Below, piece by piece: positions 51,904 to 61,383 of a stretch of 64,000 nucleotides of DNA (positions are counted from its first letter, which is position 1; each line of letters begins with the position of its first letter). The notes under the pieces were generated by a model that was given only the letters and a program-made list of their open reading frames with translations, was not told the DNA's origin and ran no database searches. Source of the DNA: Kangiella shandongensis (GTDB lineage Bacteria > Pseudomonadota > Gammaproteobacteria > Enterobacterales > Kangiellaceae); the NCBI RefSeq assembly GCF_020005365.1, contig NZ_JACNML010000003.1:248001-312000 (forward strand), written 5' to 3'. The position numbers and the translations under genes are program-made.

Positions 51904-53127
51904 TTAACTGGATCTTACCGCCATACTCTTCTTATGCCAAACCAATTGCTCAGCCTCTGCTATTTTTTCCCCAATAGAGGATAGGGTTTTGCGCCCTGCT
52001 TCATGAATGGCCTGCACCGACTGCACCTTCATAAAACTCAATACGCTCAGGCCACTGGAGCGGTTCGCAGAGCCCATGGTTGGTAAGGTGTGGTTTGGGC
52101 CTGAGCAATAATCACCGAAAGCAACCGCACTGTTCTCTCCGATAAATAAAGAACCGAAACTCGATAAGTCATTTTGATCGATGCGGTTATCGGCTAACAG
52201 CAGGTGCTCTGGGGCATATTGATTACTGAAATTCACCATATCCTCGACGGTATTCGCCTGTAGCAAAACAATCTGTCCCTGCTCTAATAGTTGATTCAAT
52301 TCAGTGTCCTCTGACAGCTGCTGCTCAATACTACCCAGCAGCTCGACACTGTCGGTCACTAGCAAGCTCTGTGCCTGCGGATCATGCTCTGCTTGCGCTG
52401 CCATATCGGCAATAAGCCACTGCTGATTAACCGATTCATCGGCTAAAATCAGCAATTCACTGGGCCCGGCTGCTACGTCAATTTGTACTGTTGTACTTAA
52501 TAACTGCTTGGCCGCATTAACATACTGGTTACCGGGGCCTACGATCATTTGTACCGGAGCGATCTCATCGTAACCATAGCCTAGGGCAGCGATAGCCTGC
52601 GCCCCGCCCAACTTCAAAAATTGTGTCGCCCCAGCATAGCTTGCCGCCGCTAGAATAGCCGGGTGATCCGATGGCGAACAGGCAATACGCTCCTTACAAC
52701 CTGCAACTTTTGCTGGAATTAACGTCATCAAAGCCGTAGAAATTAGCGGATAACGACCGCCCGGAATATAAGCTCCAATACGCTCAATTGGCTGATAGCG
52801 AAAACCGAACTCACCACACTCATCAATATAAGTCTTATCGCGAAGTTGCTGTCGCTGAAATTTGGCAAATGCCTCTATACGCCGCCCAGCAGCAACGATG
52901 GCCTCAAGTAAATCATCGTCGAGACCATATTGGTCGTATGGCTTTAACTCCATCAGGATCGGCCTAAAACCGTCGAAGCGCTGACTGAGCTCATCAATAG
53001 TGCTGTCACCATTTAAACGTATCGCCTCTAACAGCTCCTTAACTTGAGAAAGAGTCTTTTCCTGACTGCTGTTTAAATCACGCTGCCAACCCTGACATGG
53101 CATAATCCTGCTTGTATTAACCTGCAT
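51904..53127 (-). CDS. hisD: Histidinol dehydrogenase
   Basis: The product is 407 residues from ATG 53127. [58 protein letters not shown] and [14 protein letters not shown] are standard HisD blocks. It oxidises histidinol to histidine in two steps, at a zinc site. It is the last his gene of the operon; its start lies within the hisA-IE 3' end, an 11-base overlap. A start six codons earlier is possible. Confidence 0.96.
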
Positions 53128-54367
53128 TACGCGCCCCCAACTCATTTATGATTTCTTGCGCGGAAACCCCTTTTGCCTTGGCATTAACTAAAGCAAAGAA
53201 GATTAAGTCTGCCGCTTCCCAGCGAACCTCGTCCAAATTTTTCGCCTCAATCAACTCTTGACACTCTTCATTGAGCTTTTCGATTTGCAACTCTTCACTG
53301 GCAAATAATTTTTGCGTAAATGAGCGTCCATTAACCTTGGACTCAAATTCGCTAAGACGACGTTCGAATACCTGGTTCAGTGTATTTAAGTCAAACTGGC
53401 GGCTCTGGGTAGCGAAGCAGCTATAGCGTTCAAAGTGACAGGCATTACCTGACTGCTTTACCTTAAACAGCAACGTATCGCCATCACAGTCATAATCAAT
53501 ATTGACCAGCTCCTGTGTATTACCGCTGGTTAAACCTTTCTGCCATAACTCTTGCCGCGAGCGACTGTAATACACACCAGCTTTTCGCTCTATCGCCTGC
53601 TGTAGGGATGCTTTACTTGAATAAGCCAGCATTAAAACCTGACTGGTTTCAGCGTCCTGAACCACGGTTGGGATTAATTCAGTTTTATCGAAATCGAGAC
53701 AACTGAATAAGGCATCATCCAGACTAAGCTTACCGGTATACACTGACATGCCAATTTGACTGTTACCGCCCAGCTGATTAATAAACCCAACGTCTTCTAA
53801 TGTGGTAATACCGCCAGCCACAGTGACTGGTATTTTTGCAGCTTTCACCACTTGTTGAATTCGCTCCTGATCAATGCCTTGCAACAGCCCTTCTTTTTGG
53901 ACCTGGGTGTATAAAAACTCGGAACAGTTGTCTTGAATTTCTTCAATCAGATCCAATACTTTTATGCTATCTGTCGACTGCCAGCCATGCGTAACCCAAT
54001 CATCGCCTTTGGCATCAATCGCAAAAATCAGCTGCGAGGCGGGAAGCTTTTTCACAAAGTCGGCGCGACAGGAGGTTCCGAGAATAACCTTTTTGGCACC
54101 GGCCGATAAATAATCTCGGGCAGTTTCATAATCGCGAATACCACCACCAACACGGCAGGGATATTTTTTTATTAACTGCTTAATTAATGCTTTATTGCTG
54201 CCACGTCCCAGCGCCGCGTCTAAGTCAATGATGGCGACTTCACCATACAGCGAAAATTGTTCCAATAACCCAAAGACATCCGCTTCTTCAACAATCTTGC
54301 GTTCCGGGTTTCCCTGCTCCAACTGAACGGCCTTGCCATCCAATAAATCAATACTAGGAATTAACAT
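53117..54367 (-). CDS. hisA/hisI/hisE: Trifunctional HisA-HisI-HisE fusion protein
   Basis: The product is 416 residues. Residues 1-225 are HisA: SIDLLDGKAVQL with Asp7, RVGGGIRDYE, ILGTSC, FAIDAKG with Asp118, and VAGGITTLEDV. Residues 226-325 are HisI (PRA-CH): VLMLAYSS, YYSRSRQELWQKG, TSGNTQ, the metal site DCDGD and the cysteine pair in GNACHFERYSCF. Residues 326-416 are HisE (PRA-PH): EECQELIEAK and WEAADLIFFALV. Together they cover steps 2-4 of histidine synthesis. HisI-HisE fusions are common; having HisA on the same chain is unusual in my knowledge. HisA's usual TD-x3-DG stretch reads TQVQKEG. No stop or frame break separates the parts. Confidence 0.95.
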   Translation of the reverse strand: MLIPSIDLLDGKAVQLEQGNPERKIVEEADVFGLLEQFSLYGEVAIIDLDAALGRGSNKALIKQLIKKYPCRVGGGIRDYETARDYLSAGAKKVILGTSCRADFVKKLPASQLIFAIDAKGDDWVTHGWQSTDSIKVLDLIEEIQDNCSEFLYTQVQKEGLLQGIDQERIQQVVKAAKIPVTVAGGITTLEDVGFINQLGGNSQIGMSVYTGKLSLDDALFSCLDFDKTELIPTVVQDAETSQVLMLAYSSKASLQQAIERKAGVYYSRSRQELWQKGLTSGNTQELVNIDYDCDGDTLLFKVKQSGNACHFERYSCFATQSRQFDLNTLNQVFERRLSEFESKVNGRSFTQKLFASEELQIEKLNEECQELIEAKNLDEVRWEAADLIFFALVNAKAKGVSAQEIINELGARNAG

Positions 54368-54391
54368 CTAAATTCTCCTCACCCCGTTTCA

Positions 54392-55168
54392 TTAACGGGT
54401 TAAAATATTCTGTTTGCTCAAGGCCTGCTTTACATCGCCCACTCTGAACTCACCGCGATGAAACATTCCTGCAGCTAAAGCCGCATCACTGCCCGCTTTA
54501 TAGGTATCGATAAAATGCTGAGCATTAGCCGCACCGCCAGAAGCGATCACTTGAATATTTCTTTCTGTGGCCACACGAGACATTAATTCATTATCAAAAC
54601 CTATACCGGTTCCATCACGATGCATGGCCGTTAATAAAATCTCGCCAGCTCCCCGCTCCTCGACTTCTTTGAACCAATCAAAAGCGTTGATATCCGTCTT
54701 CACATGGCCTCCTCTGATATAGACCGCATAGTCATCAACATCATTTTTATTCACATCTATAGCGACCACCAGGCACTGTGAACCAAACCCTTCCGCTATC
54801 TGGTTGATAAGCTCTGGGGTCTTTACTGCCGCAGAATTTAAAGCCACTTTATCAGCACCAGCCTTCAAAAACTGCGCCACATCCTGATAACTGTTTAGGC
54901 CACCACCCACGGAAAATGGGATCGACAAGTTCTTCGCTACTCGAGTTACTGTCTCCAGAGCATTGGCACGGTTTTCAAGAGTGGCTTTAATATCAAGAAA
55001 GACAATCTCATCAGCTCCCTGCTCCTGATATTTCAGAGCCAGCTCAACGGGGTCGCCCATATCCATTAAACCTTTAAAATTGACGCCCTTAACCACGCGT
55101 CCGTTAGCGACATCGAGACAGACAATGACTCGCGGGATCAGACCGTTTGAACCGATTAATTCAGACAT
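54392..55168 (-). CDS. hisF: Imidazole glycerol phosphate synthase, cyclase subunit
   Basis: The product is 258 residues of a TIM barrel. The catalytic aspartates lie in VCLDVANGRVVKG and VVAIDVNKN; SVGGGLNS, KVALNSAAV and VIASGGA are further signatures. It pairs with HisH. The start overlaps hisH by 13 bases, favouring matched synthesis of the two subunits. Confidence 0.97.
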   Translation of the reverse strand: MSELIGSNGLIPRVIVCLDVANGRVVKGVNFKGLMDMGDPVELALKYQEQGADEIVFLDIKATLENRANALETVTRVAKNLSIPFSVGGGLNSYQDVAQFLKAGADKVALNSAAVKTPELINQIAEGFGSQCLVVAIDVNKNDVDDYAVYIRGGHVKTDINAFDWFKEVEERGAGEILLTAMHRDGTGIGFDNELMSRVATERNIQVIASGGAANAQHFIDTYKAGSDAALAAGMFHRGEFRVGDVKQALSKQNILTR

Positions 55169-55761
55169 TGCTTCATCATCTCCTCGCCCACAGGCCCTGA
55201 TTTTTCGGGGTGAAATTGAAATGCCCAGATATTCCCCTGGTTAACTGCAGCCACAAACTGTTCACCATAGTTAACTGTGGCAGCAGTGACATCAGAAGTC
55301 TTAACGCCATAACTGTTAACAAAGTAAACAATTTGCTGATCAAGGAACGCATTATCAGCATTGATCTTCGACCAACCGACCATGGGTTGTTTAGGGCTAT
55401 TCAAACGCTCGACTCTTCCTTTAAAAATACCCAACCCACTCACACCGGGATCTTCTGCTGATGACTCAAACAATACCTGTAGGCCAACACAAATTCCTAA
55501 CAGCGGTTTGTCGGCTTTAGTCCACTCAAGAATCACTTTATCCAAACCGGTCGAGGTCAGCTGACTCATCACCTGTCCAAACCGTCCCTGTCCAGGGATC
55601 AGCAATGCGCTGATACTAGTGTCCAACTGTTGTGGCTGGTTAATCATTAACGGCTCAAAACCGATACGTTTCAAGCAGGCAAACAAACTAAATAAGTTGC
55701 CCGCCTGCGTATTAATCACGCCAATCCTTTGTACTTTTTGCTTGATGCTGATCTGGCTCAT
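55156..55761 (-). CDS. hisH: Imidazole glycerol phosphate synthase, glutaminase subunit
   Basis: The product is 201 residues from ATG 55761, which overlaps the hisB stop as ATGA. The class I glutaminase triad is visible: the cysteine in LGICVGLQVLFE (usually GxCLGMQ) and the His/Glu pair in FQFHPEKSG. It gives ammonia to HisF. Confidence 0.96.
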   Translation of the reverse strand: MSQISIKQKVQRIGVINTQAGNLFSLFACLKRIGFEPLMINQPQQLDTSISALLIPGQGRFGQVMSQLTSTGLDKVILEWTKADKPLLGICVGLQVLFESSAEDPGVSGLGIFKGRVERLNSPKQPMVGWSKINADNAFLDQQIVYFVNSYGVKTSDVTAATVNYGEQFVAAVNQGNIWAFQFHPEKSGPVGEEMMKQCLN

Positions 55762-56336
55762 AAGCACCCCTTAGTACTGTTATCACGTTCGCCCACTTGT
55801 AAAGCTTCGCGCAAGGCAAATGCCAGGCCTTTAAAGCTGGCTTCAACCAAATGGTGATTATTATCAAAGTACTCCGTTTTGATATGCAGCGTTATGGCGC
55901 TGTTAATGGCAAAGGTATAAAAAAAGTGCTTCCACATTTCGGTACCGATTCCGCCTAAACTTTCCCGCGAAAAAGGCAAGTCAGTGATGGCGTAAGCGCG
56001 GCCACACACATCAACCGCCACCATCAATAAGCTCGCATCCATTGGTAACAGTCGTTGTCCATAACGCACTATTTTTCCCTGCTGGCGCCATGCCTGATTG
56101 AAAGCCTGACCTAAACAGATCGCCACATCTTCTATTAGGTGATGGTCATCAACCTCCAGATCTCCTTTTGACTTTAGCGTTAAGTCCCAGCCGGCGTGAG
56201 TCGCCAGCTGATTTAGCATATGATCAAAAAATGGCAAGCCGGTGCTGATATCCACCCTTTGCTGTCCATTGATGTCCAGCGATAAATTAATTGATGTTTC
56301 TTTCGTTTGACGTTGCAGCTTAATAACACCACTCAT
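55758..56336 (-). CDS. hisB: Imidazoleglycerol-phosphate dehydratase (monofunctional)
   Basis: The product is 192 residues. Metal-binding motifs DDHHLIEDVAICLG and NHHLVEASFKGLA, plus FFDHMLNQLATHAG, identify the IGPD domain. It lacks the N-terminal histidinol-phosphatase domain of the E. coli bifunctional HisB, so that activity must come from elsewhere, probably the HAD domain on the upstream HisC protein. It overlaps both neighbours by 4 bases. Confidence 0.97.
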   Translation of the reverse strand: MSGVIKLQRQTKETSINLSLDINGQQRVDISTGLPFFDHMLNQLATHAGWDLTLKSKGDLEVDDHHLIEDVAICLGQAFNQAWRQQGKIVRYGQRLLPMDASLLMVAVDVCGRAYAITDLPFSRESLGGIGTEMWKHFFYTFAINSAITLHIKTEYFDNNHHLVEASFKGLAFALREALQVGERDNSTKGCL

Positions 56337-58039
56337 AGTAAAGACTCCAACTGATTGACATCGTTTAATACCAAGTCTGCGCCATATTTGTATAAACTGT
56401 CATTGCCGATACCAATGGCAATGGCACCTGCACGATTAGCCGCCGCCATATCATCAGGAGTATCACCAAGCATCCAACCGTTTTCCTTAGAGAAGTAACG
56501 CAGTGCTTTAAGTATTCCTTCAGGACTTGGTTTCGACTGTTCTACATCATCATCGCTTATCACTAAGCTATTTCTTGCGCCAATCATCTGCACTCCTTCC
56601 ACAGCTTCGTCCTTTGGCCGACCAGTGACCACCGCAGCTTTTATTGTTCGGCTATTAGCAATAAACAACTCTGTCAGTAATTGTTGGCTGATAATTGGCT
56701 TTTCTAACGACTTATAACCTTTTGTATCTCCACTCCCCTGGTAGAAACTTTGAAAAACTTCAGTCACTTGCTGCAAACCAACTTCAGTGCCTTGTTCATT
56801 AGTCAATTCCTGAGCTAACACCCAGTCATTATTAAACCCGCCCTGACCGCGTAGGCGCTCAATATCATCCTGCGTAACCACGTTGCCTGATAACTTCTCC
56901 ACCGTCGCCTTGATGGCCGCATCATAGCTCTGGCTGGTATCGATCAAGACGCCATCCATATCGAAACAAATCAATTCGGGCTTAAGCGCTAATCGAAGCG
57001 CATTGAGTAAAGGCTTAAGGTAAAAGGGAATGGTTATCCTCAGAGCGCTTACAGCTTTGTCGTTGACCGTTAATCCCGAAAGATTAGTTTTGATAACAAT
57101 ATTTCGTTTTTCACAGGCCGCTTTTATCAATCTCAATTTGCTGTCACACCCCTGAATAAATACAAAATTGGCGCTACTATCGACCAGCTGTAAGCCGCTC
57201 GAAAATAGCAACTCGCCCACCAGCTCCCGGTTTTGAGCAATCATCTTGCTGTAATTACTAACCTCGAGTTTGGCGCTTTCTGTGAAGGCTTTCTTGGCTA
57301 CCTCGATAGTCGGCGCCGGCAAGTTAAATGGCATAGCCAAAGATGCAAACTGCTTGATTATTTCAGCCTGTCCCAGTAAGTAACCGCAGCGAATGCCTGC
57401 GAGACCAAATGCTTTCGATAAGGTGCGTAAAATAACGAGGTTGTCGAACTGCTGAATCAGTTCTAGAGAACTATCGTATGCCTTACAGGCGAACTCAATA
57501 TAGGCTTCATCAAGAAAAACCTGGGCTCCCTTTGATTTAGCTTGCTGACAAACCTCAACCAAACCATCGTAAGGGATCAACTCACCAGTTGGGTTATTTG
57601 GACTGGTCAAAATTAAAATGGCTCCCTCAGACAGGCAACCAACTGCAGTATTTAAATCAATCCTCATGTCTGCCAGTGGTTCAATTAGATCGATGGAGCT
57701 GCTCCAGTTATTCTTACCGACTAGATACTGGCTAAATGCAGGTAGCGGTAAAATTAACTGACGTTTTTGTAGACAGGCGTACTTAAACAACAGTTCAATC
57801 GCTTCATCACCGCCGTTAGTCAATAAAAGCTGCTCCTGATTCAAGCCATAAAAATTACTGACCTGAGTCTGTAAACCACTTTTATCTGGATACCGCCATA
57901 AACACTCAGTAGATATTGCTTCCTCCTCTAACCATAACGGACGACTATCTGAACGCTCGTTAAAGTCCAACTTAAGAGGCTGTACTGCGCCCCTTACCTC
58001 CTGATAGAAGTCGTCTTGGTTTTTGTATAAAGGTTTCAT
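56333..58039 (-). CDS. hisC: HisC-HAD fusion: histidinol-phosphate aminotransferase and probable histidinol phosphatase
   Basis: The product is 568 residues. The first 350 or so are a PLP aminotransferase: LTNGGDEAIELLF, LTSPNNPTGELI, DEAYIEF and the lysine in RTLSKAFGLAGIRCGY. From about residue 352 a complete HAD phosphatase follows: FDMDGVLIDTS, VVTGRPKDEA, KPSPEGI and GDTPDDMAAAN. Known HAD proteins of the TIGR01548 type occur fused to HisC or HisB and were proposed to be the histidinol-phosphate phosphatase. Since hisB here is monofunctional, the fusion probably carries the two consecutive steps imidazole-acetol-phosphate to histidinol-phosphate to histidinol. The phosphatase role is inferred. 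It overlaps hisG and hisB by 4 bases each. Confidence 0.93.
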   Translation of the reverse strand: MKPLYKNQDDFYQEVRGAVQPLKLDFNERSDSRPLWLEEEAISTECLWRYPDKSGLQTQVSNFYGLNQEQLLLTNGGDEAIELLFKYACLQKRQLILPLPAFSQYLVGKNNWSSSIDLIEPLADMRIDLNTAVGCLSEGAILILTSPNNPTGELIPYDGLVEVCQQAKSKGAQVFLDEAYIEFACKAYDSSLELIQQFDNLVILRTLSKAFGLAGIRCGYLLGQAEIIKQFASLAMPFNLPAPTIEVAKKAFTESAKLEVSNYSKMIAQNRELVGELLFSSGLQLVDSSANFVFIQGCDSKLRLIKAACEKRNIVIKTNLSGLTVNDKAVSALRITIPFYLKPLLNALRLALKPELICFDMDGVLIDTSQSYDAAIKATVEKLSGNVVTQDDIERLRGQGGFNNDWVLAQELTNEQGTEVGLQQVTEVFQSFYQGSGDTKGYKSLEKPIISQQLLTELFIANSRTIKAAVVTGRPKDEAVEGVQMIGARNSLVISDDDVEQSKPSPEGILKALRYFSKENGWMLGDTPDDMAAANRAGAIAIGIGNDSLYKYGADLVLNDVNQLESLL

Positions 58040-58884
58040 AGCGCTTTCCTGATTGGTGTTTCAAGAATATCGGTGGCACCCGCCGAAATCAGCTGCGGTA
58101 ACAAGTCTTTTATCAACTTACGTTCAATCGCCGCCTTAATTGCGAACCCTTCCTCATTATATAACTCACTAACGGTTGGTGAGCGCATGGCAGGCAATAA
58201 ATCGACCACCTGCTGCACATTATCCTTACTACAATTCATTTCCAGTAACACACGTTTGCGTCCATTCATCACGCCGCGCATTAATAGCAACAAGTCATCG
58301 ATTTGTTTTTTCTTTTCAGGATCCTGAAGCGTCTCTTTATTCGCAATAAACTGAGTCGAGCTTTCGATTACTGTATCAACAATTTTTAACCGATTGGCGC
58401 GAATGGTCGAACCAGTGCTGGTGTTATCAATGATCATATCGGCATCTTCTGGAGGGAAGACTTCGGTAGCACCATAAGCTCGCAGCAACTTAAAAGGAAT
58501 TCCGAGTTTGGAAAGGTAATCATTAGCAATCTTCTTATACTCTGAAGCGACAATAATATTTCGCTGCTTCACTTCCTCCCAGTTCCAATTTTCGGGAATA
58601 CACGACACCAGGCGTACCGGGTTAAAACCCAAGTCCATTAAAACCTCAACATCAGCTTCCTGCTCAATAACCCAGTCCATGCCAGCAAAGCCAATATCAT
58701 GTTGTCCCAAAGCCACCATCTCTGGAATATTCTGGCTTTTCAACAACTTCACTTCGATGTCACACCCATAAAGCGTTGGTCGATAATTGCGGCTATCTCC
58801 TACTAAGGTCAAACCCACCTCTGATAACAGGTCTTCAACCTTGTTGAACAGCTTCCCTTTCGGGACCACCATTTTTAATGTCAT
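58036..58884 (-). CDS. hisG: ATP phosphoribosyltransferase, long form
   Basis: The product is 282 residues from ATG 58884, with AGGAG about 8 bases upstream. It is the long, hexameric HisG: LKMVVPKGKLF, DIGFAGMDWVIEQ, the phosphoribosyl site DNTSTGSTIRANRL, and a C-terminal ACT-like histidine-binding domain (about 205-280) for feedback inhibition. First enzyme of the pathway and first gene after the leader. Confidence 0.96.
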   Translation of the reverse strand: MTLKMVVPKGKLFNKVEDLLSEVGLTLVGDSRNYRPTLYGCDIEVKLLKSQNIPEMVALGQHDIGFAGMDWVIEQEADVEVLMDLGFNPVRLVSCIPENWNWEEVKQRNIIVASEYKKIANDYLSKLGIPFKLLRAYGATEVFPPEDADMIIDNTSTGSTIRANRLKIVDTVIESSTQFIANKETLQDPEKKKQIDDLLLLMRGVMNGRKRVLLEMNCSKDNVQQVVDLLPAMRSPTVSELYNEEGFAIKAAIERKLIKDLLPQLISAGATDILETPIRKAL

Positions 58885-58920
58885 CACTACTCTCCTAAAA
58901 ATCTACATATACCTGAAAAC

Positions 58921-58954
58921 AAAAAAGCCCGTTGTCCTTTCGGAGCAACGGGCT
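58921..58954 (-). terminator. his attenuator 2 terminator
   Basis: AGCCCGTTG and CAACGGGCT pair over 9 bp, extended past a one-base bulge by TCC-GAAA-GGA, followed by six T residues on the minus strand. It lies 36 bases before hisG. Its 5' arm can instead pair with GAGCGACGG inside leader peptide 2 (58999-59007 against 58943-58951): nine pairs, one of them G-U, as an antiterminator. Confidence 0.9.
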
Positions 58955-58986
58955 GGAAACCTATTAATGAGTATTTTAATCAAGCA

Positions 58987-59055
58987 TTACTCATCCCACC
59001 GTCGCTCGCGCAGTGTATGATGGTGATGATGATGTAACTGGCTGATTAATATCAC
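58987..59055 (-). CDS. hisL: his operon leader peptide 2 (six consecutive histidines)
   Basis: This 22-residue ORF starts at GTG 59055, with AAGG 8 bases upstream. It reads MILISQL, then six His codons (CAT CAT CAT CAC CAT CAT), then TLRERRWDE and a TAA at 58987. A run of His codons just ahead of a terminator is the hallmark of his attenuation: with scarce His-tRNA the ribosome stalls on the run and the antiterminator forms. A protector pairing between CATC/CACC in the His run and GGTG/GATG further on is also possible. Confidence 0.88.
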   Translation of the reverse strand: MILISQLHHHHHHTLRERRWDE

Positions 59056-59097
59056 TTTAATAACCTTTTCTAAAACCTGAACTTATCTCTAAACCAT

Positions 59098-59128
59098 AAA
59101 AAAAGCCCCGCTCAATTGGCGGGGCTTT
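59098..59128 (-). terminator. his attenuator 1 terminator
   Basis: AAAGCCCCGC and GCGGGGCTTT form a perfect 10-bp stem with a 7-base loop and a run of seven T residues on the minus strand (59098-59104). The 5' arm region CCGCCAA (59116-59122) can pair over seven bases with TTGGCGG at 59174-59180 in leader peptide 1 as an antiterminator. Confidence 0.92.
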
Positions 59129-59156
59129 CAGGAAATCTTTAATCTCGACTACATTA

Positions 59157-59231
59157 TTAAAGACAACAGCTCACCGCCAACGCATTTACGTGGTGATGAT
59201 GGTGATGGCGAGTGTTCAATAATGTATTCAT
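59157..59231 (-). CDS. hisL: his operon leader peptide 1 (six consecutive histidines)
   Basis: This 24-residue ORF starts at ATG 59231, reads MNTLLNTR, then six His codons (CAT CAC CAT CAT CAC CAC) at 59190-59207, then VNALAVSCCL and TAA at 59157. It resembles enteric HisL in length and layout. CGCCA at 59206-59210 can pair with TGGCG of the antiterminator segment as a protector. No ribosome-binding site is seen, and the promoter places the transcript start next to the ATG, so it may be translated leaderless. Confidence 0.88.
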   Translation of the reverse strand: MNTLLNTRHHHHHHVNALAVSCCL

Positions 59232-59239
59232 ATGCAGTG

Positions 59240-59268
59240 ATTAAAACTTATCCGAATGAACCTGTCAA
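59240..59268 (-). promoter_or_regulatory. Sigma-70 promoter of the his leader
   Basis: On the minus strand TTGACA (59263-59268) and TTTAAT (59240-59245) are separated by 17 bases. The predicted start lies about 59232-59234, just ahead of leader peptide 1. It is the only strong promoter I see upstream of the his operon; none is evident between the two attenuators. Confidence 0.8.
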
Positions 59269-59289: not shown

Positions 59290-59754
59290 TTATATCTCTC
59301 TGGTCATAAATAAGCTGTATGGATCCTTCTTATACTCTGCAAAAGGTCCGCACTCCTCAAAGCCATACTTGCGGTAGAGTCGGACTGCTGGCTGAAAAGC
59401 CTCGTTGGTTCCAGTCTCCAGGCTAATTCGACGATAGTCCCGCTTTTTACCCGCGGCTAACATTGTAGTCAGAATCATATTAGCAACGCCTTCTCTTAAA
59501 AAAGCCTTAGCCGTACGCATCGATTTAATCTCAGCATGCTCAGGCGATAATTCTTTCAAGGCACCACAACCGATGATTTCCTCATTCTGCCAAGCACTCC
59601 AGAAGGTAATAGCCGGCTCCTTTAACTCCGACTCCTCGAGCGCATGAATACTCTCCGGTGGAGAGTATTCGTACATTTCTTTGCGATGTTCTAATAATAA
59701 CGTGATAACCTTGCCGTCTCGTAAATTATCGACTTTAATCATACAATCACGCAT
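59290..59754 (-). CDS. GNAT-family N-acetyltransferase
   Basis: The product is 154 residues from ATG 59754; ATG 59742 is also possible. The GNAT fold is seen in EEIIGCGALKEL, AEIKSMRTAKAFLREGVANMIL (acetyl-CoA-binding region, with REGVAN in place of the usual RGxG) and LYRKYGFEECGPF. The substrate is unknown. It is the last gene after amtB-glnK, with no terminator visible before the his promoter, so some read-through into the his leader is possible. Confidence 0.85.
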   Translation of the reverse strand: MRDCMIKVDNLRDGKVITLLLEHRKEMYEYSPPESIHALEESELKEPAITFWSAWQNEEIIGCGALKELSPEHAEIKSMRTAKAFLREGVANMILTTMLAAGKKRDYRRISLETGTNEAFQPAVRLYRKYGFEECGPFAEYKKDPYSLFMTREI

Positions 59755-59774
59755 CACTCTCACTTCTAACCTCA

Positions 59775-61383
<1,609 letters not shown>

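Follow-up and report, generated by a model that had tools for sequence, protein, structure and literature searches.

The window analysed here is a 64 kb stretch of Kangiella DNA with a his operon on its minus strand. The first gene of the regulated operon, hisG (58036-58884; PF01634 and PF08029), has its Shine-Dalgarno sequence at 58890-58898 and is followed by the genes for a HisC-like/HAD fusion, by hisB, hisH and hisF, by a hisA/hisIE fusion and by hisD (51904-58039, all on the minus strand). On the side opposite hisG the leader region is flanked by a GNAT acetyltransferase gene (59290-59775). The nearest named relative, according to a scan of genome contigs, is Kangiella taiwanensis, whose HisG is 91% identical. 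The minus-strand frame at 56333-58039 encodes a HisC-like aminotransferase fused to a C-terminal HAD-type hydrolase domain and adjoins a HisB without the phosphatase part; the predicted fusion protein is possibly the histidinol-phosphatase. HisA, HisI and HisE are also joined in one protein, of 416 residues (53117-54367, minus strand).

Read on the minus strand from the GNAT gene towards hisG, the leader contains a promoter, a first leader ORF (ORF1), terminator 1, a second leader ORF (ORF2), terminator 2 and the ribosome binding site of hisG. The promoter is composed of the -35 element TTGACA (59263-59268) and the -10 element TTTAAT (59240-59245) at a spacing of 17 nt, which gives 11 of 12 matches to the consensus, a score equalled by 0 of 100 shuffled sequences. 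The -10 element ends 8 nt 5' of the ATG of ORF1, so that a leaderless start is predicted. ORF1 (59157-59231) encodes MNTLLNTRHHHHHHVNALAVSCCL, with the His codons at 59207-59190. Within it lies the antiterminator arm (strand 2) of unit 1, TTGGCGG at 59174-59180, which can pair with CCGCCAA at 59122-59116, in the 5' arm of intrinsic terminator 1 (strands 3:4 plus T tract, 59098-59128, -19.2 kcal/mol). Unit 2 repeats this plan: ORF2 (58987-59055) starts with GTG and encodes VILISQLHHHHHHTLRERRWDE, its His codons lie at 59034-59017, and its strand 2, GAGCGACGG (58999-59007), is complementary, with one G-U pair, to CCGTTGCTC (58951-58943) in intrinsic terminator 2 (58921-58954, -20.0 kcal/mol).

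The earlier note, based on the letters alone, had claimed two leader ORFs with six consecutive His codons each, a stem-loop with a T tract behind each ORF, and an alternative pairing of each terminator 5' arm with a segment inside its own ORF. All three were recovered, the alternative pairings as predictions. ORF1 and ORF2 contain exactly six His codons apiece, and these are the only runs of at least six CAY codons on either strand of the window. A simple terminator scan returned terminator 1 and lacked terminator 2; a separate script called both. The 326-nt leader folds with z = -5.1, a value equalled by 0 of 100 shuffles. Chance occurrence of the His runs was ruled out, since just two such runs occur in the window and they are conserved, and a duplication introduced by the assembly was ruled out as well, because the two units are not alike in sequence and other genomes show the same layout.

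Conservation was followed in a family search covering 40 genomes, 36 of them with hisG. The window's genus contributed 20 of these, the source genome included, and 19 of the 20 had hisG. The two units were present in all 19 genus genomes with hisG, so the search of related hisG leaders that the earlier note had proposed found the second His ORF kept throughout the genus. At least three consecutive His codons were found in both leader ORFs in 18 of the 19 loci; in the nineteenth (L083, identical with L009) the second unit is present and the first reads HHSNHH, recognized by eye and also picked up under a looser rule. No two-unit leader was found among 18 upstream regions from other relatives with the same HisG type (L081, L082 and L084-L099), which came from 12 of the 17 other family genomes with hisG and from 6 genomes of other families of the order.

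The initial scan also returned two units in L022, L023 and L062. The family of the genome holding L023, Marinicella marina, is referred to below as the Marinicella family; 33 of its genomes were searched, 30 with a HisG match. In four of these the sole HisG is a distant one that lacks an upstream His ORF, and L126 was left out since the start of its hisG is missing. Among the 25 upstream regions with the window's HisG type, 14 contain two His ORFs, 10 contain one, and one (L123) is cut by the contig end. That contig starts 225 nt upstream of hisG with GGGGCTTTTTTT, which looks like the closing part (3' arm and T tract) of an earlier terminator; beginning as it does inside such an element, L123 is probably a truncated two-unit leader and not a true single one. 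Both terminators were called in 13 of the 14 Marinicella-family doubles, with only the first called in L119, and hence in 32 of the 33 two-ORF loci, the second terminator of L119 being the exception. L123 and L119 are placed among the singles in the duplex-energy, mask-folding and shuffle counts given below, and L123 is treated as single in the tree and codon-phase counts.

The same rule was applied to 40 control hisG upstream regions from other families of the order, picked from the listed matches for a spread of families, and it returned no region with two His-ORF-plus-terminator units. Exactly one unit was present in 36 of the 40, in line with the statement of the earlier note that enteric his operons have one; three of these 36 carry an additional distant His-rich frame upstream, with no terminator. 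In one further control a His ORF was present but no terminator was called behind it, and three controls had no His ORF. At the level of the class, where the set consisted of the 30 best HisG matches of 194 genomes with a match and is thus not a random sample, 0 of 30 regions had two units and 29 had no His ORF. The rule therefore makes no doubles where one unit is expected. A class-wide search run with an overly strict cut-off had returned the source genome as its sole match (1 of 369).

The promoter found in the window is a common feature of these leaders. A consensus score of at least 9/12 before the first or only ORF was obtained in 46 of 58 loci, with p ≤0.05 in 42 of 58, while 4 of the 62 loci had too little upstream sequence to be scored; since the loci are related, these counts are not independent. 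In 43 of those 46 (43/58 loci) the ATG lies 6-8 nt beyond the end of the -10 hexamer. Because the -10 element lies so close to the start codon, ORF1 is predicted to be leaderless, with a 5' UTR of 0-2 nt on the assumption of a start site 7 nt beyond that element. The predicted leaderless nature of ORF1, like the weak ribosome binding site of ORF2 described below, had been overlooked in the earlier note.

A leaderless attenuator transcript that acts in trans has a precedent in rnTrpL/peTrpL of Sinorhizobium meliloti, as described in the accessible part of PMC7298713, and the short unit 1 transcript might by analogy owe its retention chiefly to a function in trans, exerted as a small RNA or a peptide, unit 2 being the operative attenuator of hisG. 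This appears most improbable, as unit 1 has every part of a cis attenuator in line with hisG, and the 10 Marinicella-family single-unit loci with enough upstream sequence are all promoter-bound and of the unit 1 type.

Two attenuators can act in series only on transcripts that pass through both, and the earlier note had pointed to an internal promoter between the units as a feature that would make the first irrelevant to hisG. No such promoter beating shuffles was found in the 33 two-ORF loci: in the 46 nt before the second ORF 4 of 33 reached 9/12 and none beat shuffles, and over the whole stretch from the first His run to ORF2 16 of 33 reached 9/12, which is the chance level, and again none beat shuffles. 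The scan was based on the consensus, so non-sigma70 and weak promoters escape it, and one that did so could yield a share of hisG messages on which unit 1 has no bearing. The window does contain a 9/12 match, TTGGCG-16-AATAAT (59180-59153), inside unit 1 and before terminator 1, which is also present in the six nearest genus loci. A transcript started there would skip the His codons of ORF1, yet it would still meet terminator 1, and the shared match consists of the antiterminator arm itself and scores at chance level (p 0.25 to 0.51). With a near-perfect promoter before the first ORF in most loci, an undetected internal start is considered very unlikely. Since no candidate between the ORFs beats shuffles (0/33), polymerase is predicted to arrive at unit 2 solely by reading through terminator 1.

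The ability of each unit to switch was assessed by mask folding, in which nascent transcripts ending at the loop of the terminator in question were folded while a ribosome hid its footprint; the value read out, here called occupancy, was the extent to which upstream sequence paired with the 5' arm of that terminator. In the genus (n = 19) the predicted medians for a ribosome positioned at the first His codon versus at the stop codon were 0.94 versus 0.00 for unit 1 and 0.86 versus 0.09 for unit 2; the corresponding medians for the Marinicella family (n = 13) were 0.95 versus 0.02 and 0.79 versus 0.11. The median contrasts, 0.66 to 0.94, exceed the shuffled means of 0.15 to 0.26. For this control the segment from the His codons to the terminator was shuffled 40 times per locus, giving mean contrasts of 0.20 and 0.26 for units 1 and 2 of the genus and of 0.24 and 0.15 for those of the Marinicella family. 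The real contrast was reached by at most 2 of the 40 shuffles in 15 of 19 genus loci for unit 1 and 11 of 19 for unit 2, and in 12 and 10, respectively, of the 13 Marinicella-family loci. Under a strict rule, with occupancy below 0.1 at the stop codon and above 0.5 at the best stall, 17 of 19 (unit 1) and 11 of 19 (unit 2) passed in the genus, and 11 of 13 and 6 of 13 in the Marinicella family.

Fold prediction of both alternatives, suggested in the earlier note, thus gives a clean switch in unit 1 of the window (0.91 with the ribosome stalled, 0.00 at the stop) and switching of both units in the medians; for unit 2 of the window itself the predicted switch is only partial, half relieved, at 0.76 stalled versus 0.49 at the stop. 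In the ribosome-free state termination is predicted to be favoured in both units of the window (0.08 and 0.06), a property that differs between lineages.

By duplex energy, 21 of the 32 unit 1s and 24 of the 32 unit 2s showed complementarity between the ORF arm and the terminator arm of the same unit beyond that of shuffles (p <0.05), and the same test on the ORF arms of the single-group units gave just 7 of 30. The arm preferred the terminator of its own unit over that of the other in 25 of 32 loci for unit 1 and 30 of 32 for unit 2. In the window locus (L063) the complementarity of unit 1 was equalled by 0 of 300 shuffles; that of unit 2 was marginal (p = 0.04). In the alignments of the 19 genus sequences 92.9% (unit 1) and 95.8% (unit 2) of the cells of the antiterminator helices are paired, far above slid versions of the same helices, and double-sided covariation was absent from them, the result being no better than column shuffles. 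In terminator 2 a double-sided change affects one pair in 7 of the 19 sequences, and in terminator 1 two pairs show compensatory change, in one sequence each. Conservation supports the predicted antiterminators, and covariation does not decide the matter.

The main doubt about unit 2 concerns its translation. The Shine-Dalgarno sequence of ORF2 has a median energy of -2.7 kcal/mol in the genus versus -7.3 for hisG, and reaches -4 or better in 2 of 19 loci versus 19 of 19 for hisG; in the Marinicella family the medians are 0.6 and -2.9, and -4 or better is reached in 0 of 14 versus 3 of 14. Given such a weak signal, ORF2 may be translated poorly. Since hisG of the Marinicella family is itself weak in this respect, the weakness there is no sign of absent translation. 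When the 19 unit 2s are aligned, positions one and two of each of the final four His codons show no variation, while the third position does vary and is nearly always C or T. This alignment is independent evidence; the codon table aligns each His run on itself, and so has His at the last three positions by construction.

It could accordingly be proposed that histidine is sensed by unit 1 only, and that a poorly translated unit 2 either provides a brake that is fixed or untuned or responds to translation in general and not to His-tRNA. The low Shine-Dalgarno medians of ORF2 in both groups, the weaker switching predictions for unit 2 and its loss in at least one Marinicella would fit this proposal. 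It is, nevertheless, judged rather unlikely, as an in-frame second His ORF has been kept over 19 genus and 14 Marinicella-family loci, strand 2 of unit 2 prefers its own terminator arm in nearly all of the loci compared, and only 3 of 14 Marinicella-family hisG genes reach -4 or better themselves.

The interpretation that we regard as probable, from the sequence and from modelled folding, is that one transcript carries, one after the other, two complete ribosome-mediated transcription attenuators that control the his operon and each sense charged tRNA-His. A single promoter would serve RNA polymerase, with transcription beginning essentially at the ATG of ORF1. With His-tRNA plentiful, the ribosome would reach the stop codon of ORF1 and cover the antiterminator arm, so that terminator 1 would form; with His-tRNA scarce, it would stall in the His codons of ORF1, the antiterminator would form, and the polymerase would go on to unit 2. 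There the same decision would be taken again before hisG. If the two gates are independent, readthrough would be the product of two probabilities, giving a lower leak and a steeper response than either gate alone. What the sequence itself provides is the anatomy of the leader, its conservation, a predicted folding switch and the failure to detect a promoter serving only unit 2; we infer that the two terminators are active in the cell, that ribosomes translate ORF2 early enough, and that the arrangement serves steepness or low leak.

The distribution of single and double leaders is compatible with more than one history. On a HisG tree of 72 rows, among them six identical pairs, built by a quick method, at least six changes between one and two units are required, and the branch uniting the genus with the Marinicella family has a support of 53. 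Both one old origin of the two units followed by losses and several separate origins are possible on this evidence. In one Marinicella locus with a single unit, L102, the sequence behind the terminator matches the sequence following terminator 2 of L101, a close relative with two units, with a score of 49 (shuffled mean 11.9; 0 of 200 shuffles as high) and does not match the spacer after terminator 1 of L101 (score 12; 129 of 200). This is as expected if unit 2 had been deleted by recombination between the terminators, and L102 appears to have lost it in this way. The same comparison gave a weaker match for L113 (22; 0 of 200), and no match or an undecided one for L110, L111 and L114.

The codon phase of the pairing core also bears on descent. 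The strand 2 core is in codon phase 0 in the unit 2s of 19 of 19 genus and 12 of 13 Marinicella-family loci, and in another phase in the unit 1s of 18 of 19 and 13 of 14, respectively; among the single units of the other relatives it is in phase 0 in 8 of 18, and 5 of 18 could not be placed. The phase-0 core common to the unit 2s suggests, without proving it, their common descent. A recent duplication of unit 1 into unit 2 is unsupported, as the pairing cores differ in codon phase, and this difference fits the earlier statement that any duplication must be old.

A more specific version of the serial model is offered only tentatively. In it the two stages would read the same signal by two modes of initiation, leaderless in stage 1 and internal, with little or no Shine-Dalgarno sequence, in stage 2, and hisG would be expressed only if both ribosomes stall, as an AND of two readings of starvation; unit 2 would be an old element that Kangiella has in common with the Marinicella family and that has repeatedly disappeared when the similar terminators recombined.

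Attenuation by amino acids is usually viewed as a single race between ribosome and polymerase. If one leader holds two such races, both over the same codon, the gain and the leak of attenuation would be quantities that vary in nature. Close relatives carry one unit or two and L102 appears to have lost its second unit cleanly; the effect of the second stage should therefore be measurable in matched natural leaders. The predicted leaderless start of ORF1 raises the question of how leaderless initiation keeps up with the polymerase in a regulatory race.

Leaders of possibly similar function were also seen outside the Proteobacteria. In four Melainabacteria/cyanobacterial MAGs (L044, L046, L047 and L050) a conserved peptide ending in AARNHGHHHHHH(H)S precedes hisG; behind this peptide come GGAGCGGA and a terminator whose 5' arm contains CCCGCTC, and these regions are a possible his leader-peptide attenuator. 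In L052 (Vampirovibrionales) an ORF with HTHHHVAHHHGHH, again followed by a terminator, lies upstream of hisG.

The attenuator of the enteric his operon (hisL) comprises one poly-His leader unit. The enteric element (Rfam RF00514, His_leader) and the Kangiella leader are alike in the poly-His leader ORF, the antiterminator/terminator switch (predicted in Kangiella) and the position before hisG, and differ in that the former has one unit and the latter two. A search with RF00514 gave no match at the gathering threshold: unit 1 scored 25.3 bits against a cut-off of 49, and unit 2 was unlisted at E ≤10. An ordinary enteric His_leader was ruled out on these results. Unit 1 (59098-59237, minus strand) scored 33.5 bits with Leu_leader and 32.2 with Trp_leader, both below threshold yet above its His_leader score.

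The earlier note had stated that tandem his attenuators of the peptide type were not known to it, and the literature search agreed, returning no leader in which two leader-peptide attenuators respond to a single amino acid. Proteobacterial attenuators were reportedly surveyed by Vitreschak and co-workers in 2004, and that survey may contain one. The accessible part of PMC1262725 contains no tandem case.

Serial repetition of sensors for one amino acid is familiar from tandem T-boxes and riboswitches, in which the sensor is an RNA that binds tRNA or a metabolite; in Kangiella it would be a translating ribosome. Tandem T-boxes are placed before histidine transporter operons in five Enterococcus species, according to the accessible text of PMC9413887, and a second terminator is described for some rimP leaders in that of PMC2965389. 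As far as the accessible part of PMC7298713 goes, the attenuator transcript of trpL in S. meliloti starts at the ATG of the leader ORF, as predicted for ORF1, and trpL is a single unit responding to tryptophan in an alphaproteobacterium. Synthetic attenuators placed in series are stated, in the portion available of PMC3753616, to improve dynamic range; these are engineered and controlled by antisense RNA. For ermB, the accessible text of PMC8274638 describes two leader peptides needed for one inducer, with translational attenuation, ORFs that overlap in sequence and a macrolide as the signal, stalling on the second ORF not being demonstrated there.

The closest parallels, described here from the accessible parts of the sources, are two operons with paired attenuators. 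The mefA/msrD macrolide operon of streptococci carries two ribosome-mediated transcription attenuators on one transcript (PMC10314930). As proposed for the Kangiella leader, both answer the same signal and the second has an intrinsic terminator; the signal is a macrolide acting through arrest peptides, not cognate codons, and the second attenuator lies behind mefA and controls msrD only, so that the first gene is not gated by both (PMC10314930). In mgtCBR of Salmonella two serial leader ORFs lie in one leader and each acts on transcription elongation, as proposed for Kangiella, but their signals differ (ATP and proline) and the stem-loops are unlike intrinsic terminators, whereas the Kangiella units would read the same codon twice and have an intrinsic terminator each (PMC3641672). 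Paired attenuators on one transcript are thus already known from mgtCBR and mefA/msrD, and what appears to be new in the Kangiella leader, against the literature searched, is the presence of two predicted units for the same amino acid within a single leader.
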